29,486 bases of DNA from a virus. Shown piece after piece: positions 3,377 to 25,330 of the stretch. The notes beneath the pieces are model-generated. The model was given only the letters and a program-made list of their open reading frames with translations. It did no database searches and was not told the DNA's origin. Location of the stretch: positions 1-29,486 of the IMG/VR virus record IMGVR_UViG_3300035198_000159, one strand, 5' to 3'. Made by a program: the position numbers and the translations under genes. The first letter of the stretch is position 1; each line of letters opens with the position of its first letter.

Positions 3377-5527
3377 TTACGCCTCGCCCTTCATCTTCAC
3401 GCCACCCCTCGGGTCCTGGAGGGCGACACCGAAATCATGGTAGCCCCGCATTTGAATGCCGAGCACCGAGAAATCGGCCTCCGCCGTCTCAATCGTTGGG
3501 CTCTCCTGGCCGTTGAGGAATGCCACCTCAATCACCGGCAGATCATCCGGCAGGGCCAGCAAGTACCATGCCTTGCTAGAACTGCCCGAGTAGGCGGCAT
3601 TGGACAGATATCGGCACACCTCCACCCGGAACTTACCTTGGTGTGGGTTGGCAACCGGGTACTTCATGCTGGAGGTCGTGTCGCGCAGCTCCATCGATTT
3701 GTAAAGCTGCGAGCCGATGGCAGATAGCGCCGTGGGCACCAGCAGGATCGCTGGCATGATCCCGATCGGCTTGCCGTCCGTGTCCACCTGGTCCATGAAT
3801 GCCACTTCGGCCTTGGTCAGGCCGTCGATCGAAAGGACCGTATCGGCACCCTCCAGGTAGTTCTTGTTGTCCGCCGTGAAGAAGCTGCTATTGGCAAGGA
3901 ACGTGTTCCAGAAGACATCGTTCAGCTTCAGACTCGACCCGCGACCGAGCTTGCGCGGCACAGTGGTGATCGCCCCCAGGTCGTCGTTGATAATGTCCCG
4001 GCGGTCGATCGAGAGCATCAGGCCGTAGGTGTCGGCCTTGTTCGTGAAGGTTTCGTTGCCTAGGGTGCCATGTTTGAGTTCCCCGCCCGGGGCCACCTGC
4101 TCGTACTGGTCCGTGCCGATCAATCGGTAACTGGTGACGGCCTTGAAGTCCGAGACGTTCCGCACCGCGCAGATATTGCGCCAGGTCTTTTCAACCGAAT
4201 AGAACCCGTCCAAGAGGAACTTGTTGGCGACGTTGCTGAGAATGCCGCCGATGTCGATGGTCGAGAACCCGGCCTCAATCTCCGGCCGGAACGCGAACCG
4301 CAGCACGGCGCGGCTATCACGGAAACTGCGGCCCGTGTAGCCGTTAGCCCAGGCAGCTTCCAACAGCAACTCTTGCAAGCCGATCCCGCCGCGGAACCGG
4401 CGACCGGCCGCTTCCAGTGTGGGCTCGTCGTAGAGGTCTTTCAGACCTTGGCCCTTGGCCGTCAGCATGCAGGCGGCCTCCAGCAATCGCCCGGTAACCA
4501 ACTCGGGACTGCGGATCTGGACTGCTGGGGCCTTGGGGCGCTCGGCGCGCAGCACGGCCAGGGCCGTCCGATTGACATCCCATCGCTCCTCGATTGCCTG
4601 GCTTTCGATCTCCGGATGCTTACCACCGCAGATCATGCGGATCGCTAGCACCTGTGCAGCCTCGACAGCCGGGGTGTCCGAGGTGGATGGCTTGGAAGGC
4701 GGGGATTGGGGGGAAGGTTCGGCGGCGCGTGCGTCTGCCCCTGCATCAGCCACGGCCTGCTTGTCAGTCGAAATTTTCTTGCATTGCATCCTAGTATGCT
4801 CCAAATCCTGTTTGTTGGTGTCAGAAAGGTTTTCCATTTGTTGGGTTTCCTCCTTGCTTGCTGCGGCCAGATTGACGCTAGTGGCCCCGTCGGCCCCCAG
4901 ATCCACGAAACTGATCTCACCTAAGCTGGCCTTGCGGACCACATTGACCGGTCCGGCGAACTGGCGGCCGTTGACCATCACCTCCTGGTTCTCGCGAACG
5001 AACTCGAACTCCTCGACGGCCGCCGCAATCGAGGCCTGCCAAGGGAAGCCGTTTTTGGCCGAAGCGACAATCTCCTTGGCCACCGGCGTGTCGCGGGACA
5101 CCACGCCCGTGGCCACCAGCCGCCCATCCTCGATGCGGATGGCGTCGGTATGCCCCACCCCGCTTGCCATGTCGTGGCCAAAGCGGATCGGCCGGCTCTG
5201 TGCCGAAATGGACAGGCCGGCAAGGTCCACAATCACCGGATACCGCCAGCCGGCGATCCGCATGGGCCCGCCCGTGTAGGCAACCATCGAGAACCGCGGC
5301 AGCTTGGGCCTGCCATCGACATGACCATCCTCCGCCGCCTCGATCGTGATCGAACCCGGATCGCAGATCAGGTTCAGGTACGCCTCAGTGCGGACCCGGG
5401 CTTGTCGCTCGCAGACGGCCCGGCGCTGAGCTGCGTCGGGGAATTCCTCGACCATGACTGCATCGCCCATGCATCGCTCGATGAACGCATCATGCGATTC
5501 GCCGGGTTTCCTTTCAGGCAGCGGCAT
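3377..5527 (-). CDS. Prohead protease - scaffold - major capsid fusion
   Basis: A 716-residue polyprotein. Residues ~1-225 look like a caudovirus prohead serine protease: candidate catalytic His118 in IRFGHDM and Ser166 in WQASIA. Residues ~225-290 are a Gln/Asp/Pro/Ser-rich linker that could act as scaffold. Residues ~300-716 fit a Mu gpT-like major capsid protein (LLEAAWANGYTGRSF, FSTIDIGGILSNVANKFLL, FTNKADTYGL). The start ATG at 5527 overlaps the portal 3' end by 14 bp and has GAGGA upstream. A strong internal ribosome site precedes in-frame Met231. Protease-capsid fusions are known in phages of this kind. The fold assignments are by motif, not by search. Confidence 0.92.
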   Translation of the reverse strand: MPLPERKPGESHDAFIERCMGDAVMVEEFPDAAQRRAVCERQARVRTEAYLNLICDPGSITIEAAEDGHVDGRPKLPRFSMVAYTGGPMRIAGWRYPVIVDLAGLSISAQSRPIRFGHDMASGVGHTDAIRIEDGRLVATGVVSRDTPVAKEIVASAKNGFPWQASIAAAVEEFEFVRENQEVMVNGRQFAGPVNVVRKASLGEISFVDLGADGATSVNLAAASKEETQQMENLSDTNKQDLEHTRMQCKKISTDKQAVADAGADARAAEPSPQSPPSKPSTSDTPAVEAAQVLAIRMICGGKHPEIESQAIEERWDVNRTALAVLRAERPKAPAVQIRSPELVTGRLLEAACMLTAKGQGLKDLYDEPTLEAAGRRFRGGIGLQELLLEAAWANGYTGRSFRDSRAVLRFAFRPEIEAGFSTIDIGGILSNVANKFLLDGFYSVEKTWRNICAVRNVSDFKAVTSYRLIGTDQYEQVAPGGELKHGTLGNETFTNKADTYGLMLSIDRRDIINDDLGAITTVPRKLGRGSSLKLNDVFWNTFLANSSFFTADNKNYLEGADTVLSIDGLTKAEVAFMDQVDTDGKPIGIMPAILLVPTALSAIGSQLYKSMELRDTTSSMKYPVANPHQGKFRVEVCRYLSNAAYSGSSSKAWYLLALPDDLPVIEVAFLNGQESPTIETAEADFSVLGIQMRGYHDFGVALQDPRGGVKMKGEA
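4835..4855 (-). promoter_or_regulatory. Internal ribosome site and in-frame start (Met231) in the capsid fusion gene
   Basis: AAGGAGGAAA at 4855-4846 precedes an in-frame ATG at 4837-4835 by about ten bases. Initiation here would give a protein starting MENLSDTNKQ, i.e. scaffold plus capsid without the protease. This resembles the nested lambda C/Nu3 arrangement. Confidence 0.55.
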
Positions 5528-6986
5528 TAGTCACTTCCTCCTCATCGCGGTCTTTGTCCAAGGATTCTTGATCCGGCATGGGCAGGACTTGGGCTGAAGT
5601 AAGCCCCAGCTCGCGCATCATGGCCTGTTCTTTGGCCCGCTGGCGCAAAGCATCTTCCCAGTCCTGCCCCTGTCGGGCATATTCGTAGGCCAAGGTCGTG
5701 GTGTGGCTGGCTAATCGCGTGGCCTGGGCCGTAGCCTCTTTGGCTGGGTCCACGTGCTCCTGCCCGTCCCAGAACCACTGGTGCGGCCAGTCGGCAAACG
5801 GCCCCAGGTCCTCCGGCCAGAGTTCTGGGATCAGCACCACCTCATCGAGCCAGGCCGAAAGCACCCGGTCCAGGACCGCGGCCTCCAGGTGGGCCTGCTC
5901 GACGCGGAGGCTCTTGTAGTAGGTCTGGTGGTCCAGCCGGCCGGAGGCGTAGTTGTAACTGGACGAGTTGCCCGCCGCGATGTTGAACGGCATATTCAGA
6001 CAGCGGGCGATTTCGTTGAGGATTTCTCGTTTGAACTCCGCGTAGGTGGTGCTGGGCTGTTCGGCCTGAAGCTGGCTCATCTTCCAGCCACCGGGCATGG
6101 TGACCAGGGCTCGGCTCTCCAGTTCGATGGGCTCGAACGGTTCGGCCGCGTCCGCCTCGCCGCCCGGCGGGGCGTCGGTGTAGAGAATGCCAGCGAAATC
6201 GGCCGCCGTCTCAGCCGCGGCGAGCACCGCCAGTGTGAAACGCCGAAGCTGCGCAAAGAGTGGCAAGGCCGGCATGAGGTCGGGAATCCCGCGAACCTGC
6301 CCGGGACGATCGGCCCGGAACCAGTGCACCACGGCCTCAGCCGGCAAGCGGTCATACTGGACGCCCGAAACCACCAGCGCATCGCCCGGATGTTGCCGCA
6401 GTACGTGGTACTCGACCGGGTTGCCGAAGGCGTCGAAGACGATGCCGTCCACAGCGCTGCCGCCAAGGGGGAGCAAGTCTGGGGTGGTTACCTGGTCGGC
6501 CTCGACCAGCCGCAAGTCCAGCTTTACTTGGGTGGGCAATCGCGGGTTACTGGTTAGAATGGCAAAGGCCTCGCCGTCCTGAGCCCGGGCCATGCGCATA
6601 GTACGAAGTTTTTCGGCCAACCCCGCCGCCTTGGCCCATCGGGCAAATTCCTGCTCGATGCGCCGGTTAGCCTCCGCAGTGGCGGTAAGCATTTGAAGCC
6701 GCGGGCCGCTGCCGATCAGGTCATTAGCCAGCGTCAGCACAATGCCCCGCGCGTAACTGTTGTTGGCCACCTCGTACCGGGCGCGGTTCCGCAGGATGCG
6801 CCGGACCTCGGGGTTATTGGCTGCCCGGGCCGAAAGCCCATCGGCAGCCGCCCAATGCCGGCGGTTCTCTTCGGTGGTTGTCGCCGCGTCGTAGCGGGCC
6901 TTGATCGAAACGGCCCGCCACGCACGCGGGCGACGACGAAAGGGGGTGGCCTTCCTGGGCCACAACTGCCGCATCCACGCAAACAA
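5514..6986 (-). CDS. Portal protein (lambda GpB type)
   Basis: A 490-residue protein with typical lambda-family portal features: RARYEVANNSYARGIV near residue 70, an NDLIGSGPRLQ segment, EQEFARWAK, RMARAQDGEAFAIL, the LRLVEADQV strand, VHWFRADRPGQVRGIPDLMP, then the tail FAGILYTDAPP to NYASGRLDHQTYYKSLR. Portals form the dodecameric DNA channel at a capsid vertex. The first codon is TTG at 6986, with GGGGGTG eight bases upstream; an ATG at 6974 is the alternative. Its first ~27 codons and upstream sequence are duplicated beyond the tRNA gene (7089-7194). The 3' end overlaps the protease-capsid start. Confidence 0.93.
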   Translation of the reverse strand: MFAWMRQLWPRKATPFRRRPRAWRAVSIKARYDAATTTEENRRHWAAADGLSARAANNPEVRRILRNRARYEVANNSYARGIVLTLANDLIGSGPRLQMLTATAEANRRIEQEFARWAKAAGLAEKLRTMRMARAQDGEAFAILTSNPRLPTQVKLDLRLVEADQVTTPDLLPLGGSAVDGIVFDAFGNPVEYHVLRQHPGDALVVSGVQYDRLPAEAVVHWFRADRPGQVRGIPDLMPALPLFAQLRRFTLAVLAAAETAADFAGILYTDAPPGGEADAAEPFEPIELESRALVTMPGGWKMSQLQAEQPSTTYAEFKREILNEIARCLNMPFNIAAGNSSSYNYASGRLDHQTYYKSLRVEQAHLEAAVLDRVLSAWLDEVVLIPELWPEDLGPFADWPHQWFWDGQEHVDPAKEATAQATRLASHTTTLAYEYARQGQDWEDALRQRAKEQAMMRELGLTSAQVLPMPDQESLDKDRDEEEVTNAAA

Positions 6987-7011
6987 CTCAGTTCACCCCC
7001 GGCGGAACGAG
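6906..7011. repeat. 106-bp direct repeat, copy A (portal start region)
   Basis: This block holds the last codons of the upstream small gene and the first ~27 codons of the portal gene. It recurs at 7089-7194 with one visible substitution (AAAGGGGG here, AAAAGGGG there), synonymous in the portal frame. It abuts the tRNA 3' CCA with no base between. Confidence 0.95.
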
Positions 7012-7088
7012 TGGAGCTAGCGGAGGGACTCGAACTCACAACCTGCTGATTACAAATCAGCCGCTCTGCCAACTTGAGCTACGCTAGC
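7012..7088 (-). tRNA. tRNA-Thr (anticodon TGT), CCA encoded, T-stem imperfect
   Basis: Minus-strand sequence folds as a tRNA: acceptor GCTAGCG/CGCTAGC (7 perfect pairs), D stem GCTC/GAGC with a GG in the loop, anticodon stem GCTGA/TCAGC with loop TTTGTAA (anticodon TGT, Thr), discriminator T and encoded CCA. The T loop TTCGAGT is canonical. The T stem GTGAG/CCCTC has two mismatches (T-T and A-C), so activity is uncertain. The gene fills exactly the gap between two 106-bp direct repeats. Confidence 0.9.
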
Positions 7089-7194
7089 CGAAACGGCCCG
7101 CCACGCACGCGGGCGACGACGAAAAGGGGTGGCCTTCCTGGGCCACAACTGCCGCATCCACGCAAACAACTCAGTTCACCCCCGGCGGAACGAG
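7089..7194. repeat. 106-bp direct repeat, copy B (duplicated portal start)
   Basis: Second copy of the block at 6906-7011. It supplies the true C-terminus of the small gene at 7171-7368. Read in the portal frame it gives a short peptide that enters the tRNA sequence and stops at TAA in the anticodon loop, so this portal start is a dead-end duplicate. Confidence 0.95.
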
Positions 7195-7368
7195 CTTGTT
7201 GAATCTCAACCCGCGCTTGGTCTTGCCAGTCGCCTCCTTGCTGGCCAGGTAGCGGTCGGCTTCGATCTGGTCGGACAGCGGGTGCTGTTCGACCGTGCCC
7301 GCGTCGCTGGCCACCTTGGCCGGCCCCTGCGCGTTCTGGCGAATGGTATCTTCCAGCTCGTCGGTCAT
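7171..7368 (-). CDS. Small head-region protein between terminase and portal
   Basis: A 65-residue, mostly charged, helical protein (starts MTDELEDTIRQN, ends KLVPPGVN). ATG at 7368 has GAGGG seven bases upstream; the longer open frame upstream crosses the AT-rich promoter region and is unlikely to be coding. Its place between terminase and portal is that of gpW-type head-tail joining proteins in lambda, but I see no clear sequence match, so the role is positional inference. Its last eight codons lie in repeat copy B. Confidence 0.7.
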   Translation of the reverse strand: MTDELEDTIRQNAQGPAKVASDAGTVEQHPLSDQIEADRYLASKEATGKTKRGLRFNKLVPPGVN

Positions 7369-7529: not shown

Positions 7530-7775
7530 CTACAGTTCCGCCCCCACAGCTGCACGCTCGACAGTGATTACGCGCCGGCCGCAGTAGCGGCACACACGCC
7601 GGCGGCGGATGCGACCGCTGGGCAAGGGCTCGGTGTGGGTAGTGTGCAAATGGCAACACCCGCACCGCGGGCAGGCAATACCACGCTCCGGTTTAGGAAC
7701 TTGGGGCGTGGGGAGTGTCTGCGAAACTTCTCTAGATGGGCGTTGGGGGGTCTGAACTGAAGATACGTCATCCAT
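7530..7775 (-). CDS. NrdR/Ogr-like zinc-ribbon protein
   Basis: An 81-residue protein whose C-terminal half is a zinc ribbon: CPRCGCC, then RIRRRRVCRYCGRRVITVER. The RRR-x-C-x-x-C-G-R-R-x-x-T-x-E-R pattern resembles the nucleotide-repressor NrdR ribbon and, more loosely, the Ogr/Delta phage activators. The N-terminal ~35 residues look disordered. I chose ATG at 7775: it overlaps the terminase stop as ATGGATGA and has GGAGGAGGCGAGG upstream, which implies coupling. It could regulate late transcription or assist packaging; neither is shown. Confidence 0.75.
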   Translation of the reverse strand: MDDVSSVQTPQRPSREVSQTLPTPQVPKPERGIACPRCGCCHLHTTHTEPLPSGRIRRRRVCRYCGRRVITVERAAVGAEL

Positions 7776-10044
7776 GCTGGCCTCGCCTCCTCCGCTGAAG
7801 CTCTGCAAAACTCACCCGCCGGCGTTCCTTGCTCGGTTCGGCGGACATACCCGGCAGTGAAACCCCCTGGATCGACGCGGCCACCGTAGAGCCCACCAGA
7901 CAATCCAACCAGTGGTTGTCGCCCGCCGACATGCGCAGCTTCCACTCGTCTACGGTCCTGCCCCGCCCTTCGGTCTTCACCCGGTACTCAGCCGTCACGT
8001 GCTCGGCAAACAGCCGGTGTCGCACCGGGTCGTCGCCAAACAGGGAAAGACACCCCGGGTCGCCCATTGCCACGGTCAGCCGGGCGCAGACAAATGATTT
8101 CCAAAAGTTCGTGTCATAGATCACATACCGCACGGCCCGGCGGCCCTGGACATTCGGGATGCGCCAGTTGAGCCCGCAGCGGTCGCCCGGCTTGCGCTGA
8201 TAGTCGTTGAGCTGCCGACTGGATGCCCCGATGAACCGCCCGTGGCTGGGCATCACCACCGCGGCATGGGCCGACTGGCGGCAAAACTGGTAAACCACAT
8301 CGGTGGATTGTCCCCAATTGGCATCAATCAGACACCGCTCGATCCGCAAGCAGGCCCCGTCGTCCCTGTGGAACTCACGGCCCAGATAGTCGTCCGCGAG
8401 TTTTTCCAGCCCGGCGTAGATCGCTCCTTCTACGCCACCGGCCTTGGTCACCGCCGCAAGTGTGGGCCGGGCATCGCGGAGCGAAAAATAGGGCCGATGT
8501 TGCGGCGGATAGGTGCCGTAATCGATCACGTAGCCGGTGAAATCGTCCTCCCATGCCGCCACCACGAAGAACAACAAGCCTTGCTGCACGTCAATGAACA
8601 TCGTCAAATGGTTGCAACCGACAGGCACCTCACCCCGGCGCATCCGGTTCAATTTGGCGGCAATCTGATCCGCCGTCAGATCCTCTGTTTCGACCATTTC
8701 CTCCGGCAAAGGCTCGTTCTGGTACTCAGCCCAAAAGGCTCGCTCGTCCTGAAGCTTCAGGTTCATAACATGCTGTACAGCCGAAAGCTCGTCATAGTTG
8801 TAACGTTCGGGCCAGGCAACAATCGCTCCTTCGTCCATCGCCTCGCGATTCTGCCGATAGAACTCGGTCGCCTCCTCGCCGTGGCCGCCCCGGCGAAAAC
8901 TTGCGGCCCGCAATTCGGCGTAACGGGCCCAAAGCTTCTCGTTCGCGGGAAAGCTGTAAACCAGCTTGGTGCGCTCGCCGTTCCACTCCGGATGTTTGTC
9001 TCGATTCAGAATGTTGTCGGCCATATCGCCTAAGCGGATCACGGTGCAAGGCATGACCCCGGCGATCTTCTTGGCCGGCCCGGCCAGGCCCAAGACGGCC
9101 CCAGCCAAGATGCTCTCCCGCGTGGCACACTGCGAAAGGCTTCGGGCCGATTCGTCAGTCTGCGGGTCGTCGAGCACCACCAGGCTGGGCCTTACGGTCT
9201 TCCCATCGGCCCGCTTAAATTTCATCCCACGGATGCGCCCCGTCAATCCCGCTACCTTGATGATCGCGCCTGAGGCCTTGCTCCCCGGGATGGTCGGCAA
9301 CACGATGTCTTTGGCCGTCCAGCCAATGTGGGTCCGCTCGCCTCGATAAAGTTGGCCGCTACAGCGGTTGGCGATCCCGTCCAGGCAATGGATCGGGTAG
9401 ACCACCTCGGGGAAGTCTTCCAGCAAGAGCTCGTTGCCATCCAGCTCCATCTTGATCGATTCGAGCATGTCCATCGCGTGGCCTTCGTCCGAGCCGATCA
9501 GCGCCACGAACTCCCGATGGCCATAAAGCACGGCCCAAAGGCAGGCGGTCTCCGCGATGGAACTTTTCCCGGTTGACCTGGGCATTGCCAAGGCAAATAG
9601 CCCGCCGTGAAGCACCGCTTGCGCAATCTTGGCCATCACTTTTAGGTGATCCGGCGACCAAGCCAAATAGAACGTCATTGGGAAGTACTGCTCGCAGAAG
9701 AAGCGGAAGTCTTGGGCGGCTTGCGCTTTCCGCTTGGGATGGACCACCACCGGTAGTTCGCCGATGTCGCGGCCGGCAAGCGAAAGGGCTTTGCTCCGGG
9801 CCGCGGCACGCTCTTTGAGCTTCTCGTAGGGGTCGCCCTCGGCTTGCGGCTTGGGCGTGTGCCGCAATTCCACCAGCCAAGCCGCATAGCGGAACAGGTC
9901 CACGCGCCGGCCATCGCCGATGCGAAAACCGGCCCGGGTGCGGTGCCGACGCAGTTGCCGCTCGTTCAAGACCGTGCCCAGCGACGCGGAATTGACTAGC
10001 CGGCATAGCTCGCTGGGACGCAATCGCCTGAGGTCAACCGCCAC
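7768..10044 (-). CDS. Terminase large subunit (GpA-like packaging ATPase/nuclease)
   Basis: A 758-residue protein. Walker A is MPRSTGKS (154-161), Walker B LVVLDDP (288-294). The C-terminal nuclease has candidate metal-binding acids in MFIDVQQ (Asp485), CLIDANWG and DNHWLDC. The GTG start at 10044 has AAGGAG eight bases upstream and overlaps the small gene before it by 11 bp. The first ~62 residues form an extra domain, with LRPSELCRLV followed by a RRVDLFRYAAWLVEL segment. It matches the layout of the neighbouring 92-residue protein and may bind DNA. It would pump DNA into proheads through the portal. Confidence 0.95.
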   Translation of the reverse strand: MAVDLRRLRPSELCRLVNSASLGTVLNERQLRRHRTRAGFRIGDGRRVDLFRYAAWLVELRHTPKPQAEGDPYEKLKERAAARSKALSLAGRDIGELPVVVHPKRKAQAAQDFRFFCEQYFPMTFYLAWSPDHLKVMAKIAQAVLHGGLFALAMPRSTGKSSIAETACLWAVLYGHREFVALIGSDEGHAMDMLESIKMELDGNELLLEDFPEVVYPIHCLDGIANRCSGQLYRGERTHIGWTAKDIVLPTIPGSKASGAIIKVAGLTGRIRGMKFKRADGKTVRPSLVVLDDPQTDESARSLSQCATRESILAGAVLGLAGPAKKIAGVMPCTVIRLGDMADNILNRDKHPEWNGERTKLVYSFPANEKLWARYAELRAASFRRGGHGEEATEFYRQNREAMDEGAIVAWPERYNYDELSAVQHVMNLKLQDERAFWAEYQNEPLPEEMVETEDLTADQIAAKLNRMRRGEVPVGCNHLTMFIDVQQGLLFFVVAAWEDDFTGYVIDYGTYPPQHRPYFSLRDARPTLAAVTKAGGVEGAIYAGLEKLADDYLGREFHRDDGACLRIERCLIDANWGQSTDVVYQFCRQSAHAAVVMPSHGRFIGASSRQLNDYQRKPGDRCGLNWRIPNVQGRRAVRYVIYDTNFWKSFVCARLTVAMGDPGCLSLFGDDPVRHRLFAEHVTAEYRVKTEGRGRTVDEWKLRMSAGDNHWLDCLVGSTVAASIQGVSLPGMSAEPSKERRRVSFAELQRRRRGQHG

Positions 10045-10328: not shown

Positions 10329-10718
10329 TCACGTAGACGCATCGTGTATCCTCTTCACCGGCTGCCATTGGGGCGCCTTCTCTTCGGACAGTTCCACTAC
10401 AAAGTGGACCGGTTTGCCAAGCGCCAGCGCGATGTCAATCTCGGCTTGCACACCCCGACTGTGCTGCCACCCATCGAGCGGAAGCACCCACAGCTCATCG
10501 CAGGCGGCCAAGAACCGCCGGTCATGCCTCTCCCAAAAATTCCAATCCAAAGGCAATCCGTGCCGGGCCATGGAATGGCTGTGGACAATCGGTGAGAACA
10601 CGATGTGGCCGTGCCGGATGAGTGCCGCCGCTGCGCGGCAGGCGGCTTCGAAGCGCTGTTGACGCACGGCCGTGACGGGGTGTGAGTAGGGACTGGCAAG
10701 GTACACAAGATGGTTCAT
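10329..10718 (-). CDS. DUF1937-like protein (nucleoside deoxyribosyltransferase superfamily)
   Basis: A 129-residue Rossmann-like protein opening YLASPYSHP, then HGHIVFSPIVHSHSMA, WERHDRRFLAACDELWVLPLDGW and SRGVQAEIDIALALGKPV. This is the DUF1937 pattern, related to nucleoside 2-deoxyribosyltransferases. The Glu in GVQAEI is at the usual catalytic or nucleotide-binding place. Phages carry such proteins in nucleotide metabolism, although the substrate here is unknown. Start ATG 10718 has AGAGGTAG upstream. It is the first gene after the probable origin. Confidence 0.85.
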   Translation of the reverse strand: MNHLVYLASPYSHPVTAVRQQRFEAACRAAAALIRHGHIVFSPIVHSHSMARHGLPLDWNFWERHDRRFLAACDELWVLPLDGWQHSRGVQAEIDIALALGKPVHFVVELSEEKAPQWQPVKRIHDAST

Positions 10719-10855
10719 TCAACTACCTCTGCCTTCATGCTTGCTTCCTCGCGTCAAGCGTCCGAACTACGAAAAGAAACTCTGCTCAATCGCGGTGGTG
10801 TTCCCGCAGCCCTCTCGGGGGGGTGACCGCCGGGAAGTACCTAATCGATCATCGT

Positions 10856-10930
10856 CCTTGCCCTCGTGCGCGCGAGGGCAAGGGCGCGCGCCCTTGTCCT
10901 CGCGCGCGCGTACGCGCGCGCGCGCGCGCG
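10856..10930. repeat. Overlapping palindromes and alternating CG tract
   Basis: CCTTGCCCTCG (10856-10866) pairs with CGAGGGCAAGG (10873-10883). An 18-bp arm at 10868-10885 pairs with 10890-10907 (17 of 18, 4-base loop), so two exclusive hairpins can form. Next, 10901-10930 is a purine-pyrimidine alternating run of CG with one TA, a sequence type prone to Z-DNA; shorter alternating segments continue to about 10970. Confidence 0.85.
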
Positions 10931-10978
10931 AATACGCGCGCAAACACACGCGCGGACACGTGCGCGTGTAGGGGGGGT

Positions 10979-11196
10979 AGGCGGTAAGGCGGTAACTAGG
11001 AGGAAAAAAATATAAATATATATCATATATATACTTACGTCTTTTCCGGTTACCGCCTTTGCCTAGGCGGTAACCTGGCGGTAACTAGCGGTAACTCCCT
11101 CTTGCTGGTGACATTGCATCGCAATGTTAGGTGCCCGGTTACCGCTTTAAGCAGGCGGTAACTGGGCGGTAACTGGGCGACAACCAGGCGGCAGCT
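10979..11196. repeat. Iterons, consensus RGCGGTAACT
   Basis: Copies on the plus strand start near 10979, 10987, 11065, 11076, 11086, 11153 and 11164; inverted copies lie at 11048-11058 and 11137-11147; two degenerate copies follow near 11175 and 11186. Neighbouring direct copies are spaced 10-11 bp, one helical turn. The inverted pair 11048-11058/11065-11075 is a perfect 11-bp palindrome with a 6-base gap. A further palindrome, ACATTGC-ATC-GCAATGT, lies at 11111-11127. Confidence 0.85.
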
Positions 11197-17892: not shown

Positions 17893-18060
17893 GAGATAAC
17901 CTTGCTTTGCCAAGCCGTGCCTGACTTCGTAATACCCTTGGCGGCATCACGAAGCCAGGCCGCGAAACGTCACACAACCTTGCCTTGCCTTGCCTTGTCG
18001 CGCCGCGCCGGGCCATGCCGCGCCATGCCTAGCCTAGCCTTGCCGGGCCTTGCCGGGCCG
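17893..18060 (-). repeat. Compound intergenic element, copy 1 (pentamer tract + hairpin)
   Basis: On the minus strand: a run of about 15 pentamers of the form GGCNN (about 17992-18060), then GTTTCGCGGC, then CTGGCTTCGTGATGCC pairing with GGTATTACGAAGTCAG. All 16 positions pair in the minus-strand RNA, three as G-U. It lies between the metallophosphatase and HELLH genes. Copy 2 is at 18880-19024. Confidence 0.8.
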
Positions 18061-18879: not shown

Positions 18880-19024
18880 CCACGCTTTGCCTGGCTTCGT
18901 GATGCCAAAGGCATCACGAAGCCAGACTACGAAACTTCACCAAACCTTGCCTTGCCTCGCCGCGCCGCGCCTCGCCTGGCCGCGCCCCGCCTCGCCGCGC
19001 CCTGCCCCGCCCCGCCTTGCCTCG
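18880..19024 (-). repeat. Compound intergenic element, copy 2 (pentamer tract + hairpin)
   Basis: On the minus strand a GC-rich tract of NNGGC pentamers (about 18946-19024) leads to TTTCGTAGT and a perfect 16-bp hairpin, arms 18891-18906 and 18910-18925 with loop TTT. The arms match those of copy 1. It lies between the 193-residue gene and the metallophosphatase gene. Confidence 0.85.
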
Positions 19025-19026
19025 CC

Positions 19027-20066: not shown

Positions 20067-20961
20067 GATGTTCTCTCGAGGATTGTTTCAACATTTCGAC
20101 GGCTCGCATATTGGAGAGCACGACCTCTGTACGGGGCGCCTGGCGTCTCGCTGCGCCTGGCCCCTGTAAACCAAAATTGCGCGTGTGTACGGCCGCGTGG
20201 CAGGCAACGGCATACTCCGTTTTTTGCCAACCAGCGGCCACTAAGGGGACATACACGGGATGGTCGTAACACGACAGTACCACAGCTCCGCGGCATGCTA
20301 ATAGCGTTGCCACTAATGCTTCGTGATGGCCATGGCTCGGCTCGACGGCGTAGGTGCTCTTTGTGCGCCGCGTGGCGGGGTGATATGGCGGGTCTACGTA
20401 AAAGACTGCATCCGGGGTATCCCAATAGCGAATCACGTCAAGGGCGTCGCGGTTGTCGATCTGAGCCACCAACAACCGGCGATGCCAGTCGGCCAACCTG
20501 GTGAGTCGCATGATCCAACGGTTTGTCGTATCGGCTATGCCAGATCGAGACGTGAATGTGCGGCTCCAATTGCCGGCGGTGCGAATTGTTGTCGCAACTC
20601 CCAAATTGCGGCTCACAAAAAACGCCCACGCGCGCATCACCGGGTCCGTGACAGGGTGGTCCTTCAATATCTCCAATGCGCGGCAGAACTCAGCTCTGGC
20701 ATAAAGAGTATACAACAACCGATGCCTCAATTCAGCAAACGTCTGCGGATTTTGAAGGCATCGGAACAGATTCACTAATTCGCCGTCAACGTCGTTGAGT
20801 ACTTCAATTGGTGCCGGTGGGCGTGCAAAAAACAGACTAGCGGCGCCCATGTACGGCTCGCAGTACGGCCGCCCCCCAAGAGGCACATGGCGCAGCAGTT
20901 TGGTGACCATAGCACCCTTTCCCCCAAAGTACCGTAGTGGTGCACGCAGGTGATGGCACAT
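20056..20961 (-). CDS. DNA adenine N6-methyltransferase (Dam, D12 class)
   Basis: A 301-residue protein: PLRYFGGKG (SAM-binding motif), CEPYMGAASLFF, NDVDGELVNLFRCL, and catalytic VFYVDPPYH with YHPATRRTKSTY. This is the D12 adenine methylase family. It should methylate adenine in a short recognition site, possibly to evade host restriction or mark DNA. The specificity cannot be read from the sequence. ATG 20961 follows the DUF669 stop by seven bases, with a weak ribosome site. The C-terminus (~20 residues) is basic and variable. Confidence 0.93.
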   Translation of the reverse strand: MCHHLRAPLRYFGGKGAMVTKLLRHVPLGGRPYCEPYMGAASLFFARPPAPIEVLNDVDGELVNLFRCLQNPQTFAELRHRLLYTLYARAEFCRALEILKDHPVTDPVMRAWAFFVSRNLGVATTIRTAGNWSRTFTSRSGIADTTNRWIMRLTRLADWHRRLLVAQIDNRDALDVIRYWDTPDAVFYVDPPYHPATRRTKSTYAVEPSHGHHEALVATLLACRGAVVLSCYDHPVYVPLVAAGWQKTEYAVACHAAVHTRNFGLQGPGAARRQAPRTEVVLSNMRAVEMLKQSSREHHAQ

Positions 20962-20968
20962 GATCGTC

Positions 20969-21421
20969 TCAGCGTCGCCAGGGAGGAGTGTTTGTCAGCG
21001 CCTGCTGCGGCCGGCCGGTCACCGCGTCTCGCTTCTCGAATCCCTGGATGACATTGGCAATCTCGTCGGTGTCCTTGCGCTTCTTGCAGCCCACGCGGAT
21101 GACCAGCGGCAGGTTGTGCAGCTCCACGCTGTCGCGCGGCGTGAGCACCCCGACCGCCCGGCAGACGGCCGACAGTTCGGCCCGGGCGATCTTCACCGCC
21201 AGTTCGTTGGGGTTGTCCAGGTTCAGCCTTGACCAAAGCTGCCGGCCCTTGTGTTCGCTTTCGAGAATCGTGAAGACCAGCTCCAGGTAGCTGCCCGTGC
21301 CCGCCTTGTTCGGCTTCATTTCTGAGGCCGTGATCATCGCCAGGTATTTCCCGGCAGGAATGGGGTCGAAGCTGGTGGTAGGCTCTACCTGGGAAGCGTC
21401 GAATCCGGCCAGATTGACCAT
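20969..21421 (-). CDS. DUF669-like single-strand-binding-type protein
   Basis: A 150-residue protein: PIPAGKYLAMITASEMKPNK, GTGSYLELVFTILESEHKGRQLWSRLNLDN, ELSAVCRAVGV and PLVIRVGCKKR. This is the DUF669 pattern found beside recombinase ATPases in phages and thought to bind single-stranded DNA. ATG 21421 has AAGGAG nine bases upstream; the longer frame is in another gene's coding. The disordered C-terminal tail ends in PPWRR. It probably works with the ATPase gene directly upstream. Confidence 0.85.
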   Translation of the reverse strand: MVNLAGFDASQVEPTTSFDPIPAGKYLAMITASEMKPNKAGTGSYLELVFTILESEHKGRQLWSRLNLDNPNELAVKIARAELSAVCRAVGVLTPRDSVELHNLPLVIRVGCKKRKDTDEIANVIQGFEKRDAVTGRPQQALTNTPPWRR

Positions 21422-21425
21422 GATT

Positions 21426-22172
21426 TCAAGCTCCTTGGGATTGGGGATTGTGATTGCTGATCGCCGCGACAAAGGCCGGCCACGACAGTGGCAGGCTTTC
21501 CGCGATGCCATAGCGGTTCTTGGCCACCAGTTGTGGCGTCTCGTAGAGGATGAGTTCCCGGTCCTGGCCGACTAGGCGGATCGCCCCGCCGACTAGGCGG
21601 ATCGCCCCGACGAAGTCTGACCACTCGATCATCGTGTTGGCCAGGTCGGGATGGATTTCGGGGGCGGACTTCTCCAGCTCGATTCCATCGATCGTGGTCA
21701 TCGAATGACGGATCGCATGGGCCAATAGCAGCACGGCCACGCCTCCATTAACCAGCCGGTCCAGCACGGGTAAGAGGTACTGGTAGACGTAGTTCTTCAG
21801 TACCTGCCGGCCGTTGCCGTAGCCACCGTGCGAGCGGTTCAAGGTCTGCTTCATGCCGGTGGGCGTGCCGTCCACCCCGGCCACGTGCTCTTCGATCCGC
21901 CGCAGGAGCCAGTCGATCGAGTCGATCACGACCGTCTGGTACTCATGGCCGCCGACGGCCAGGCCGTCGAGCCAGGGCTCGATCTCGGGCCAGGTGGCCA
22001 GGTACGGCGTGCGGTGGCACTGCACGTGGGCCGCGCCGTTTTCGCAATCGACGATGAGCGGCCGGTCCGCGGACGCCCCGAAGGTCGTCTTTCCCGCCCC
22101 TGGGGCGGAGTAGATGATGCCCTTGGGGGCCCGCAAATGGGATTGGCTGATCACGGTATCCGGAAGGGGCAT
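21426..22172 (-). CDS. RecA-like/Sak4-type recombination ATPase
   Basis: A 248-residue ATPase: Walker A SAPGAGKTT (22-30), PLIVDCENGA, Walker B TVVIDSIDW, GGVAVLLLAHAI and an AKNRYGIAE segment near the C-terminus. This is the phage AAA_24/Sak4 group, single-strand annealing or RecA-like recombinases acting with a DUF669 partner. ATG 22172 has GGAGAA upstream; the longer frame would cross the hairpin region. A perfect 21-bp tandem duplication (21567-21608) doubles the segment GAIRLVG. Confidence 0.88.
   Translation of the reverse strand: MPLPDTVISQSHLRAPKGIIYSAPGAGKTTFGASADRPLIVDCENGAAHVQCHRTPYLATWPEIEPWLDGLAVGGHEYQTVVIDSIDWLLRRIEEHVAGVDGTPTGMKQTLNRSHGGYGNGRQVLKNYVYQYLLPVLDRLVNGGVAVLLLAHAIRHSMTTIDGIELEKSAPEIHPDLANTMIEWSDFVGAIRLVGGAIRLVGQDRELILYETPQLVAKNRYGIAESLPLSWPAFVAAISNHNPQSQGA
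21567..21608. repeat. 21-bp tandem duplication in the ATPase gene
   Basis: Two identical 21-bp units back to back, in frame, adding seven residues (GAIRLVG twice). The absence of any difference suggests a recent duplication. Confidence 0.95.
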
Positions 22173-22209
22173 GCGAAGTTCTCCGTGGAAAGGACAATGG
22201 GAAGTTCGC

Positions 22210-22296
22210 AAAAAAGGCCGGTCGCCTTCGGGTGCGGCAACGATCCTTGTCCATGACATGCCTACTCAACTTCAAAAGACCCGACAGGCGACCGGC
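22210..22296 (-). terminator. Long-stem hairpin with T-run between nuclease and ATPase genes
   Basis: Immediately after the nuclease stop, GCCGGTCGCC pairs perfectly with GGCGACCGGC; inside, TCGGGT pairs with ACCCGA, leaving a ~45-base loop; C and six T follow. This looks like an intrinsic terminator or attenuator within the operon. A structured RNA is possible given the large loop. Confidence 0.6.
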
Positions 22297-23445
22297 TCAG
22301 ATGCAATCGAACACGCGGCATTCTTCGTAGCCGCTTGGCCACGTATCAGTGGCCATGCACCGTCGCAGCCGCTCGATGGCCGCCTCGTTTTCGCGCCGGG
22401 CCTGTACCAGGGCGTCCGGATGCACCTTCCAAACGCCCGAGCGGTACGGTTCCTTCTTCTCCACGGCGATGAAGTGGACCGGCAGAAGAATATCCACACG
22501 AGCCGGACGCTCGAATTTCCGAAGCAGCACGGCCTGGTAGAACGCCACCTGGTGGACGTAGCCATAGCGCCGGGCGTCGGCCTCGAACCAGTCCAGGTCG
22601 TCACAGGTCTTCAGGTCCACGAGGCCCCGGTGCGGGTCGAACCAGTCCATGCGAATCTGACATGACATTTGGCAATACTCGGCACGCACCACGCCCTCTG
22701 GTGTGCCTTCGCTCAGCAGGTCCGTCGCCAGACCATGCCCGCGAACCCCTTCGGCCATGCGCTGGATTAGGTCGTGTTGCTGGAAGGTGAGCACCGGCTT
22801 GCCCTGCTGGGCGGCCCACTCGGCAAAGGCTTTGGTGTTCGCGCCGTAGATTTCACCTGTCTTCGGGTTGACCGGCCCGCCGACGGCGTAGTCTTTCCCG
22901 AACACTTCGTGGCCTTCCAGCACCAGCGTGTGCAGCGCCCGGCCCACCAGAAACGCCGGCCGGTCCTCCTCTTCGATCAGACCCAGCTTCTTCTTGCGGT
23001 ACAAGAGCGGGCAGCGGCGAAAGTCGGCCAACTGGTGACTCGTAAGGTGTTCCTTCGCCTGGGCACGATAGACGCTTTCGGGTTCGCCCAGAAGTATCCA
23101 GGGAGGCCAATAACCGCTTCTGCGCCGCCACGGCGTCGCCGATTCGGGTGGTGGTTGCAAGGCATGTTGTTTCTCCCAGCGTTTCTGTTTTCGCCACCAC
23201 TGCTGGCGCGTGCGCCCAAGCAGCTTTTGCCAAAAGTCGTCGTCGTTGATCTCCTGGGATGCATGCTCCAGGACGGTCAGCCACAAGGTCTGCTGGAGGT
23301 CCTCGGCATCGGCAGACTGCAATGGCCGGCAGCCTGGCGGGGCAGTGCTATAGCGCTCGACCAGCGGCCGCAGCTTGTCCAGAAAAGACTTGTCAACAGG
23401 CTGGGCCGATGATACAATAGGCGCACCGGGCGCTGTGGTGGACAT
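22297..23445 (-). CDS. PD-(D/E)XK recombination nuclease with sigma-like N-terminus
   Basis: A 382-residue protein. Residues ~125-382 are a RecB/exonuclease VIII/Cas4-like PD-(D/E)XK nuclease (DUF3799-like): HLTSHQLADFRRCPLLY, FLVGRALHTLVLEG (His), QIRMDWFD (Asp), GLVDLKT (D-x-K) and GYVHQVAFYQ. Residues ~45-95 look like sigma-factor region 2: DAEDLQQTLWLTVLEHA, then FWQKLLGRTRQQWWRKQKR. No stop or second start separates the parts. ATG 23445 has GGAGG six bases upstream. It probably resects DNA ends for the downstream ATPase/DUF669 pair; the role of the N-terminal segment is unknown. Confidence 0.85.
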   Translation of the reverse strand: MSTTAPGAPIVSSAQPVDKSFLDKLRPLVERYSTAPPGCRPLQSADAEDLQQTLWLTVLEHASQEINDDDFWQKLLGRTRQQWWRKQKRWEKQHALQPPPESATPWRRRSGYWPPWILLGEPESVYRAQAKEHLTSHQLADFRRCPLLYRKKKLGLIEEEDRPAFLVGRALHTLVLEGHEVFGKDYAVGGPVNPKTGEIYGANTKAFAEWAAQQGKPVLTFQQHDLIQRMAEGVRGHGLATDLLSEGTPEGVVRAEYCQMSCQIRMDWFDPHRGLVDLKTCDDLDWFEADARRYGYVHQVAFYQAVLLRKFERPARVDILLPVHFIAVEKKEPYRSGVWKVHPDALVQARRENEAAIERLRRCMATDTWPSGYEECRVFDCI

Positions 23446-23462
23446 CCGCGGCCTCCGGTATA

Positions 23463-23493
23463 GCCGCCCGGCGTTCATCACACGCCGGGCGGC
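23463..23493 (-). promoter_or_regulatory. Perfect 12-bp hairpin in the 5' leader of the recombination operon
   Basis: Minus-strand GCCGCCCGGCGT pairs with ACGCCGGGCGGC over a 7-base loop, between the candidate promoter and the GGAGG ribosome site. It could stabilise the mRNA 5' end or serve as an operator or attenuator. Confidence 0.6.
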
Positions 23494-23511
23494 AACGTTT
23501 TGTTACGGGCT

Positions 23512-23536
23512 TCTACCTCTATATACACCTGGCAAA
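23512..23536 (-). promoter_or_regulatory. Candidate promoter motif, copy 2 (GTATATAG core)
   Basis: Minus strand TTTGC, GTATATAG, GGTAGA; 20 of 25 bases match 7379-7403. An upstream TTTTCA lies 18 bases before TATATA, a plausible -35. The surrounding gap 23446-23638 is AT-rich with runs of A/T and G. Confidence 0.5.
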
Positions 23537-23638
23537 TTTTTTTTGAAAATTCGTGGGAAAGTGGCCGCAAAAAATTGCAAGAATTTTTTCGGGGGGGCCT
23601 AGACGGCCTACCAGACGGAGGGGGCGTCTCTGACCGGG

Positions 23639-24544
23639 CTACCGGCAATCGGGCACCGGCAATACATCGGCTGCGCTCCGCTCGCCCGTGAGCGTAGGAT
23701 CGACGTAAAACCGCCAGGTCGTCGCCGCCGAAAAGTGCCCCGCCTGGCGCTGGGCCAAGGCGGGATCGATCGCCCAGCAGTAGCTCAGGCAAGTCCGCCG
23801 CAGCCGGTGAAACAGTTGCCGCGGCTGCCCGTCGTAACGCACTCCGGCATGGCAGACGATGGCCCGAAAGGCGACAAAGAGGTGGCCATACGAATAGGGC
23901 CAGAAAAAGAGTGGACGCTGGGCGTCGGGCTGGCGCAATTTGCACAGCGCTGCCAAACAGGTCGGGTGCAGGCGATAGCGCTGCTCGTGTCCCGTTTTTG
24001 TGGCCAGACAAGTCCACACGCCCGCCCGCCAATCTACGCTGCCCGCGCGAGCCGCCATCACGTCGCCGATCCGGACACCCGTCCAGTAGATGCATAAGAT
24101 CAGGGCATACCACCAATCGGCCGCAGCGTGCTCGCCAATGCGGCCGGGCCATCGTCTTGCGGTGCGCAAGAGGGCGCTGATCTCCTCGACTGTCCAGGCG
24201 GCGGGCACCCGGTGTGGCTCGCGCAGGCGGGGCACCCATCGCGGGGGCGCGTCCACAAAGCCCTGACGCCAGGCCCACAGGCGTAGCGTGTTGATCCCCC
24301 GCCGCCGTGTGTTCGCGGTCGCGGGGCTGAGACCGCGCGCCAGCAACCAGCGCAGCCACGCAGTGACCAGCTCGTCGGTTACGCGACACAGGGGCACAGG
24401 GCCCGCAAAGCGCTCGAAGTCGCGCACTAATAGACGGAGTTGATAGGCCGACCGCGAGCGCATGGCCAGACGGGATGGCAGATAGTGCTCTTCCGTGAGC
24501 CGTGTCAACGTGAGATTGACCCGGCAACACATAGGCACCACCAC
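23639..24544 (-). CDS. Tyrosine recombinase / phage integrase
   Basis: A 301-residue recombinase. An N-terminal SAM-like DNA-binding half (~15-95) precedes the catalytic half with Arg158 (WTGVRIGD), Lys183 (ATKTG), His246 and Arg249 (FHRLRRT), His270 (QAGHFS) and nucleophile Tyr280 (WRFYVDP). The full catalytic set suggests activity in integration/excision or dimer resolution. The start is uncertain: GTG/ATG near 24544-24532 have weak ribosome sites, while a good one (GGGAGG) precedes an ATG near 24579 in another frame. It is followed by the gap that holds the recombination operon promoter. Confidence 0.92.
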   Translation of the reverse strand: MVVPMCCRVNLTLTRLTEEHYLPSRLAMRSRSAYQLRLLVRDFERFAGPVPLCRVTDELVTAWLRWLLARGLSPATANTRRRGINTLRLWAWRQGFVDAPPRWVPRLREPHRVPAAWTVEEISALLRTARRWPGRIGEHAAADWWYALILCIYWTGVRIGDVMAARAGSVDWRAGVWTCLATKTGHEQRYRLHPTCLAALCKLRQPDAQRPLFFWPYSYGHLFVAFRAIVCHAGVRYDGQPRQLFHRLRRTCLSYCWAIDPALAQRQAGHFSAATTWRFYVDPTLTGERSAADVLPVPDCR

Positions 24545-24746
24545 GGGGCCTGCCGCGGGGAATAGACCGCGCTCGCGTCATGCGAAGGCCTCCCTGCATC
24601 CAAACACCGGCCGGGCTGGCGGTCGAAGAAGCTCGGCGCAGTGCCTGCGAATCTGTTCGCGGGCCGTCCGTGTGCCTCACAGAGGGCCCGGCTAGTGAAG
24701 CACAGATTCTACCGTTCAGGCAGGCCCTGTCAAGCCCCCTCTTCCC
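24545..24746. other. Upstream region of the integrase, no gene seen
   Basis: About 200 bases between the terminator and integrase. It contains the GGGAGG plus ATG near 24579 in the wrong frame for the integrase, and a CG-rich stretch. I see no clear promoter or attachment site. Together with the tRNA-like sequence and the region to 25039 it makes up a ~495-base gap. Confidence 0.4.
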
Positions 24747-24784
24747 AAAAAAAGCCGTCCTGAGATCAACGATCTCAAGACGGC
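24747..24784 (-). terminator. Strong rho-independent terminator
   Basis: Minus strand GCCGTC-T-TGAGATC, loop GTT, GATCTCA-G-GACGGC: 13 pairs with one mismatch, followed directly by seven T. It ends transcripts coming from the glycosyltransferase cassette and tRNA-like sequence before the integrase gene. Confidence 0.88.
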
Positions 24785-24846
24785 ACACTGAGTCTGAGGC
24801 ACGCGGCGGGAGGCTCCACCGCGCCGGCCGAAGCCGGCAGACTCAA

Positions 24847-24926
24847 TAGAGCACCGGAAGGGAGTCGGACCCTCAATTGCAGCTTGGGAAGCTGGCGGCC
24901 ATGCCGGTCTACCACAATGACAGAAC
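24847..24926 (-). tRNA. Degenerate tRNA-Gly-like sequence (anticodon CCC)
   Basis: Minus strand shows a D-arm (GTC-ATTGTGGTA-GAC), an anticodon arm CCAGC-TTCCCAA-GCTGC (anticodon CCC, Gly), a T arm GAGGG-TCCGACT-CCCTT and a 3' strand CCGGTGC-TCTA. However, no 5' strand complements CCGGTGC and there are about nine extra bases between D and anticodon arms, and T55 is C. It is probably a decayed tRNA or a tRNA-derived site; a functional odd tRNA is less likely. Confidence 0.4.
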
Positions 24927-24943
24927 ATCAACGGGGATGCCGA

Positions 24944-24973
24944 CTTACGACGCCGGCCCCCCCAACCCGAAGG
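24944..24973. repeat. ~30-bp leader-like repeat, copy 1
   Basis: Similar to 25308-25339 (shared CTTACGACGCC, then C-rich, CCCAACCC). Copy 2 covers the start of the CHC2 gene; copy 1 lies just before the tRNA-like sequence and is not coding. Confidence 0.6.
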
Positions 24974-25039
24974 GGTCCACTTACAGATTCCTCTTCTCTG
25001 TTGCCGCTTTGTTCTCTGTCGCCGATTTCTCGGCGGATG

Positions 25040-25330
25040 TCAAGTGGGGGGGGCGAAGGTCGTGGCGAGGCTTTCCGCGGCCTGCCCGAGGGGCAGCCGG
25101 TGATAGGCGGCCCAGAGATCGAGGGTGTTTCCCTGGGCCTGGCACTCGGGATGGAAGCAGCGGAACACGCCCTTTCGCAGGTGGACCGAGAAGGAGCGAT
25201 GCCGGTCGCTGGGGGCGTCGTGCAGGGGGCACGGTCCGCGGCGTTGGGGGCCAAAGCCCCGCAAGGGATCGAGGTAGCCGAGGTGCCGCAGCACTTGTTC
25301 GATCGGCCTTACGACGCCAGCCCTCCCCAA
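25040..25330 (-). CDS. Stand-alone CHC2 zinc-finger (primase-type) protein
   Basis: About 96 residues with CPLH (Cys34, His37), RSFSVHLRKGVFRCFHPEC (Cys58, Cys63) and GNTLDLWAAYHRL. This is the CHC2 zinc finger of DnaG-type primases, which binds template DNA, here without a TOPRIM domain. No ATG is available in frame after the upstream gene; I chose TTG at 25330, with GTG at about codon 13 as the alternative. It is the last gene before the terminator. It could help the origin primase or be a relic of a larger primase. Confidence 0.72.
   Translation of the reverse strand: MGRAGVVRPIEQVLRHLGYLDPLRGFGPQRRGPCPLHDAPSDRHRSFSVHLRKGVFRCFHPECQAQGNTLDLWAAYHRLPLGQAAESLATTFAPPT

Follow-up and report, generated by a model that had tools for sequence, protein, structure and literature searches.

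A complete CCA-ended tRNA-Thr flush between 106-bp direct repeats at the portal gene start of a phage, and its possible origin from a mature host tRNA

A complete 77-nt tRNA-Thr, running from the first base of the mature molecule to an encoded CCA, exactly fills the space between two direct copies of phage coding sequence at the start of a portal gene. We propose, with moderate confidence, that the insert derives from a mature host tRNA-Thr(UGU) with its CCA tail, of which a DNA copy was captured where the phage genome was broken or carried staggered nicks, with duplication of 106 bp of the target.

The phage is IMG/VR record IMGVR_UViG_3300035198_000159, a single contig of 29,486 bases, and the whole of this contig is the window analysed here. 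Its minus strand encodes a lambda-type portal, a gpA-type terminase, a protease-capsid fusion, a primase, a helicase, and a tyrosine integrase. Both contig ends (1-223 and 29282-29486) lie in tandem repeats, with periods of 15 nt and 54 nt, and thus they were probably set by assembly breaks, not by genome ends. The features around the insertion, and the integrase, are listed below.

5514..6986, minus strand: portal protein gene, 490 aa, lambda-type (PF05136, E 4e-60; PHROG 21), intact, with a TTG start in R1
6906..7011, minus strand: repeat copy R1, downstream in gene sense (repeat search, alignment of relatives)
7012..7088, minus strand: tRNA-Thr, anticodon UGU, 77 nt, mature base 1 to encoded CCA (ARAGORN, Rfam RF00005, host-gene comparison)
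7089..7194, minus strand: repeat copy R2, upstream in gene sense (repeat search, translation, alignment of relatives)
7171..7368, minus strand: small gene, 65 aa (ORF), with an intact 3' end in R2
7768..10044, minus strand: terminase large subunit (PF20454; PHROG 38/15)
23639..24544, minus strand: tyrosine integrase (PF00589), 16.5 kb from the tRNA

The tRNA matched RF00005 at 59.2 bits (gathering cut-off 29) over 7015-7088, and the remaining positions, 7012-7014, are the CCA. Its cloverleaf, anticodon, and conserved positions, scored above the model cut-off, are those of a functional tRNA gene. The T-stem contains U50.U64, which is also present in host genes and is thus native, as well as a private A52.C62 mismatch. 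R1 and R2 are direct repeats of 106 nt with one mismatch, and at both junctions with the tRNA there are no spare bases and no microhomology. R1 provides the functional portal gene with its ribosome-binding region and its first 81 nt, and the full portal ORF begins at the TTG of R1 at 6986. R2 holds the final 24 nt of the small gene together with a truncated portal start, which begins at the matching TTG at 7169, reads LFAWMRQLWPRKATPFRRRPRAWRAVS and then ASVAQVGRAADL, and stops within the tRNA. The initial annotation had described both the flush arrangement with one substitution and the portal start ending inside the tRNA; the former was borne out by ARAGORN, Rfam, and a repeat search, and the latter by translation. 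Since the duplicated stretch covers both the point where the small gene finishes and the point where the portal gene begins, neither neighbouring protein was lost, and this explains why the event was tolerated.

The 65-aa gene matched no PHROG or Pfam family; in alignments of related phages it is kept upstream of the portal gene. In seven close relatives, the small gene, a single repeat region, and the portal gene follow one another uninterrupted, with no tRNA, and the repeat region aligned over 82-101 nt at 84-93% identity. Two further relatives found through their terminase (L471 and L472) likewise have a single copy, so that the uninterrupted junction suggested by the initial annotation as a comparison does exist. 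Therefore, the tRNA-Thr was inserted here and 106 bp of the target were duplicated, and it shows both the target duplication and the empty site in relatives that are expected of an inserted processed RNA. The single difference between the copies is a derived base in R2, a synonymous change of a proline codon from CCC to CCT, while the relatives agree with the functional copy R1. Over the repeat, the nearest relatives diverge from the phage by 7-16%, so a single difference between R1 and R2 means a fairly recent event.

Any tRNA is found in only 2 of 45 related records. In one relative, IMGVR_UViG_3300049594_000559, with a portal identity of 74%, about 30 predicted tRNA genes form an array at 20719-25209, while 43 of the 45 records have no tRNA. 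None of the genes in this array, which belongs to the same portal family, matched the inserted tRNA-Thr.

To place the structure among other tRNAs, the same script, allowing 4 nt of slack, was applied to 1083 distinct viral tRNAs from 260 IMG/VR loci (970 in a first pass) and to 243 tRNAs of host genomes. The viral sample was picked by patterns of CCA-ended tRNAs, and at least one such tRNA was required per locus. Flush direct repeats in these samples were at most 13 nt long, and thus flush duplications like the present one were absent from this broader viral sample. This bears on the possibility of an assembly or library artefact, in which a chimeric contig would have put a tRNA sequence into a phage region. 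The structure is known from one contig, assemblers loop at repeats near the k-mer length, and R1 and R2 are near that length. However, random chimeras are not expected to give two independent junctions that are base-exact at the ends of a mature tRNA, the two copies differ by a base that the relatives mark as derived in the truncated copy, and none of the 1083 other viral tRNAs has the structure. We consider an artefact unlikely.

The predicted host of the phage is within the Planctomycetes. Portal relatives that occur as prophages are mainly from Planctomycetota, many of them in Pirellulales and Thermoguttaceae, and the closest tRNAs are tRNA-Thr(UGU) of Pirellulales, the order of many of these prophages and of the Thermoguttaceae genome G053, at 95-96% identity. 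The insert has four differences from the commonest Pirellulales form. G26 and G57 are present in some members, while the extra base in the D-loop (+1) and G52A are private and were found in none of the compared genes. The exact donor was not found: the first 49 nt of the tRNA had no exact match in 84,980 genomes, so that the host-genome search proposed in the initial annotation yielded close Pirellulales genes and not an identical one. Neither the tRNA-Thr nor its junction with the repeat occurs in any other viral contig of the collection, from which near-identical records were perhaps left out, and a BLAST search of the tRNA against a phage database gave only general tRNA similarity.

The CCA distinguishes the insert from most candidate donors. 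A pattern search over 147 genomes of the order, blind to CCA state, gave 65 body-matching tRNA-Thr(UGU) genes, the exact donor not among them, and 64 of the 65 have no encoded CCA. The CCA of the insert, rarely encoded by host genes, together with the exact mature ends (base 1 to CCA, no extra bases), as expected of a processed RNA, suggests that a mature tRNA molecule served as the template. The simplest explanation of the CCA would be that it is the tail which a mature tRNA receives after transcription, although the argument is a statistical one, since a minority of Pirellulales encode CCA in tRNA-Thr(UGU). These are L223 and L253-L256. Their CCA-bearing copies are part of the native Thr-Tyr-Gly-Thr-Trp tRNA cluster, which in L251 is accompanied by EF-Tu, and no repeats flank them; thus they are not further retro-insertions. 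In the tRNA clusters around tRNA-Thr(UGU) in Pirellulales (L192-L260), the encoded CCA varies by gene, with 33 of 59 for Tyr, 1 of 54 for Gly(UCC), and 1 of 55 for Thr(GGU).

The existence of such genes leaves room for capture at the DNA level, in which a CCA-encoding tRNA-Thr gene of the host or of another phage would have been acquired through end joining or template switching, accompanied by a tandem duplication of 106 bp. Encoded CCA is also common among viral tRNAs (852 of 1083, in a sample selected by CCA pattern), and tandem duplications at filled-in breaks are known in other systems (PMC8355091). Against this, both DNA breakpoints must by chance have hit mature base 1 and the A of CCA, only one of the 65 host genes of this type encodes the CCA, no flanking donor DNA is left, and no donor was found in the viral or genome collections. 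We regard capture of a DNA gene as a minority possibility, less probable than the copying of a mature tRNA.

Tyrosine integrases often use tRNA genes as attachment sites, and a tyrosine integrase is encoded in the window. However, an attP would hold a 3' fragment of a tRNA beside the integrase gene, whereas here the tRNA is whole, has a copy of a phage gene start on either side, and is 16.5 kb away from that gene. A BLAST search of the tRNA against the window gave no other tRNA-Thr piece with an exact match longer than 11 nt. An ordinary integrase attachment site is thus highly improbable, in agreement with the initial annotation, which had argued that normal integration into a tRNA gene does not give this pattern. 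The initial annotation had offered two alternatives, insertion of a mature tRNA sequence or of a repeat-tRNA unit. The first is favoured by the CCA count in host genes. A mobile repeat-tRNA unit or homing cassette would fit formally, since the structure equals one tandem tRNA-repeat unit added to a resident repeat, but the tRNA and its junction have no other copy in the viral collection, and the repeat is ordinary phage coding sequence that is single in relatives. This alternative is scarcely credible. A transposon or IS insertion, with a transposase, terminal inverted repeats, and a short fixed duplication, was rejected because the insert is the 77-nt tRNA alone and the duplication is 106 nt. 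An LTR retroelement or retroplasmid, with its own reverse transcriptase and RNA replication, was also rejected, since the window has phage structural and replication genes and Pfam found no reverse transcriptase among its ORFs.

The insertion could also have formed during circularisation or concatemer joining, if linear ends redundant by 106 bp at the repeat had been joined not by homologous recombination but with a tRNA, as ligated RNA or as a copy, acting as filler. This would account for the arbitrary length of the duplication and for the homology-free junctions, and the gross form equals that of LTR-tRNA-LTR circles. Among 80 portal relatives, 15 have a contig end at most 500 nt upstream of the portal start, which is an enrichment. 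However, these ends share no single base, and no evidence places genome ends at the repeat. We consider this route very unlikely. The clustering of contig ends upstream of the portal gene may in itself mark a site of packaging, or else a variable region at which assemblies break.

In the reading that we favour, the copying of a mature tRNA, the event would have run in three steps. First, nicks on opposite strands about 106 nt apart, or equivalent overlapping ends, would have arisen at the junction of the small gene and the portal gene. Second, the long overhangs would have been filled in, leaving the 106-nt stretch once on each end; it is the 106-nt duplication that points to two staggered nicks, or to overlapping ends, with fill-in ahead of joining. 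Third, the tRNA would have been reverse-transcribed, starting at its CCA and running through to the 5' end, and the full-length copy joined between the two ends without homology. The exact mature 5' and 3' ends and the CCA argue for an RNA template. The enzyme would most simply be a host reverse transcriptase of the group II or retron class, or a DNA polymerase with reverse transcriptase activity. Of 40 genomes from the presumed host order, 19 have a reverse transcriptase (PF00078) and 12 have Ku. Several observations count against the copying of an RNA: the structure is from a single contig, the window itself encodes no reverse transcriptase detectable with Pfam, the exact donor was not matched, and 106 nt is a long duplication for target-primed reverse transcription to have left. 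tRNA-primed synthesis at the site was considered and rejected, because the CAAG before the repeat does not match the tRNA 3' end, TCCA.

Parts of this route have parallels elsewhere. In a retroviral circle, a reverse-transcribed tRNA lies between terminal repeats (Colicelli and Goff 1986, as described in PMC12220202). The phage structure shares the repeat-tRNA-repeat layout and the reading of the tRNA as a reverse-transcribed mature molecule. According to the same account, however, the retroviral case involves LTRs, a reverse transcriptase, and a tRNA that was a (spurious) primer and has no 5' bases, whereas the present case is a dsDNA phage with no reverse transcriptase, with repeats of coding sequence and a complete tRNA. 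In an HIV case presented in PMC12220202 itself, where a reverse transcriptase is likewise encoded, the CCA was taken as a mark of an RNA intermediate. In mitochondrial retroplasmids of Neurospora, a mitochondrial tRNA was copied in between the terminal ends of the plasmid, and what the retroplasmid reverse transcriptase recognises in a tRNA structure is the CCA at its 3' end (Chiang and Lambowitz 1997; Mohr et al. 2000; both as described in PMC12220202). The phage insert would similarly be a tRNA copy within a DNA element. Unlike these retroplasmids as described there, which have their own reverse transcriptase, the phage encodes none and has a long target duplication. In mammalian cells, tandem duplications arise when long overhangs are filled in ahead of end joining (PMC8355091). 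This is the same kind of fill-in as in our second step, but there the breaks were made with a Cas9 nickase and no RNA-derived filler of exact gene length was involved. Finally, a bacterial group II-like reverse transcriptase, G2L4, is active in double-strand break repair and is a plausible kind of actor, although the available part of that work reports no tRNA insertions (PMC12337344). We found no report of a repeat-tRNA-repeat structure in a DNA phage in the open-access literature searched, which does not prove its absence. The initial annotation had likewise named no described mechanism for this pattern in phages; retroviruses and retroplasmids do provide precedents.

The gain of tRNA genes by phages is usually explained by imprecise excision or by recombination of chromosomal DNA. 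If the proposed reading is true, a phage tRNA gene was gained in one step by an RNA-to-DNA route, with the flanking genes unharmed. With a clean case of RNA-templated gain, a second route of tRNA acquisition would be open to phages and perhaps to bacteria, and such a case would also stand as a natural footprint, left in a bacterial cell, of DNA repair on an RNA template. This route could be looked for by its signature, namely exact mature ends, a CCA that is missing from the host gene, and a target duplication flush with the insert.

The tRNA-Thr may still be usable by the phage, and it is probably co-transcribed with the late genes. Codon need as a driver of the gain is not evident: the main ORFs contain 429 Thr codons, of which 56 are ACA. 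Two other unusual stretches were noted in the window. A direct repeat of 117 nt (17943-18059 and 18910-19026; 77% identity, 967 nt apart) lies partly in short intergenic stretches, and a long, Z-DNA-like run of alternating CG/CA with overlapping palindromes occupies 10841-10990, flanked on one side by the gene at 10329-10718 and on the other by the primase gene.
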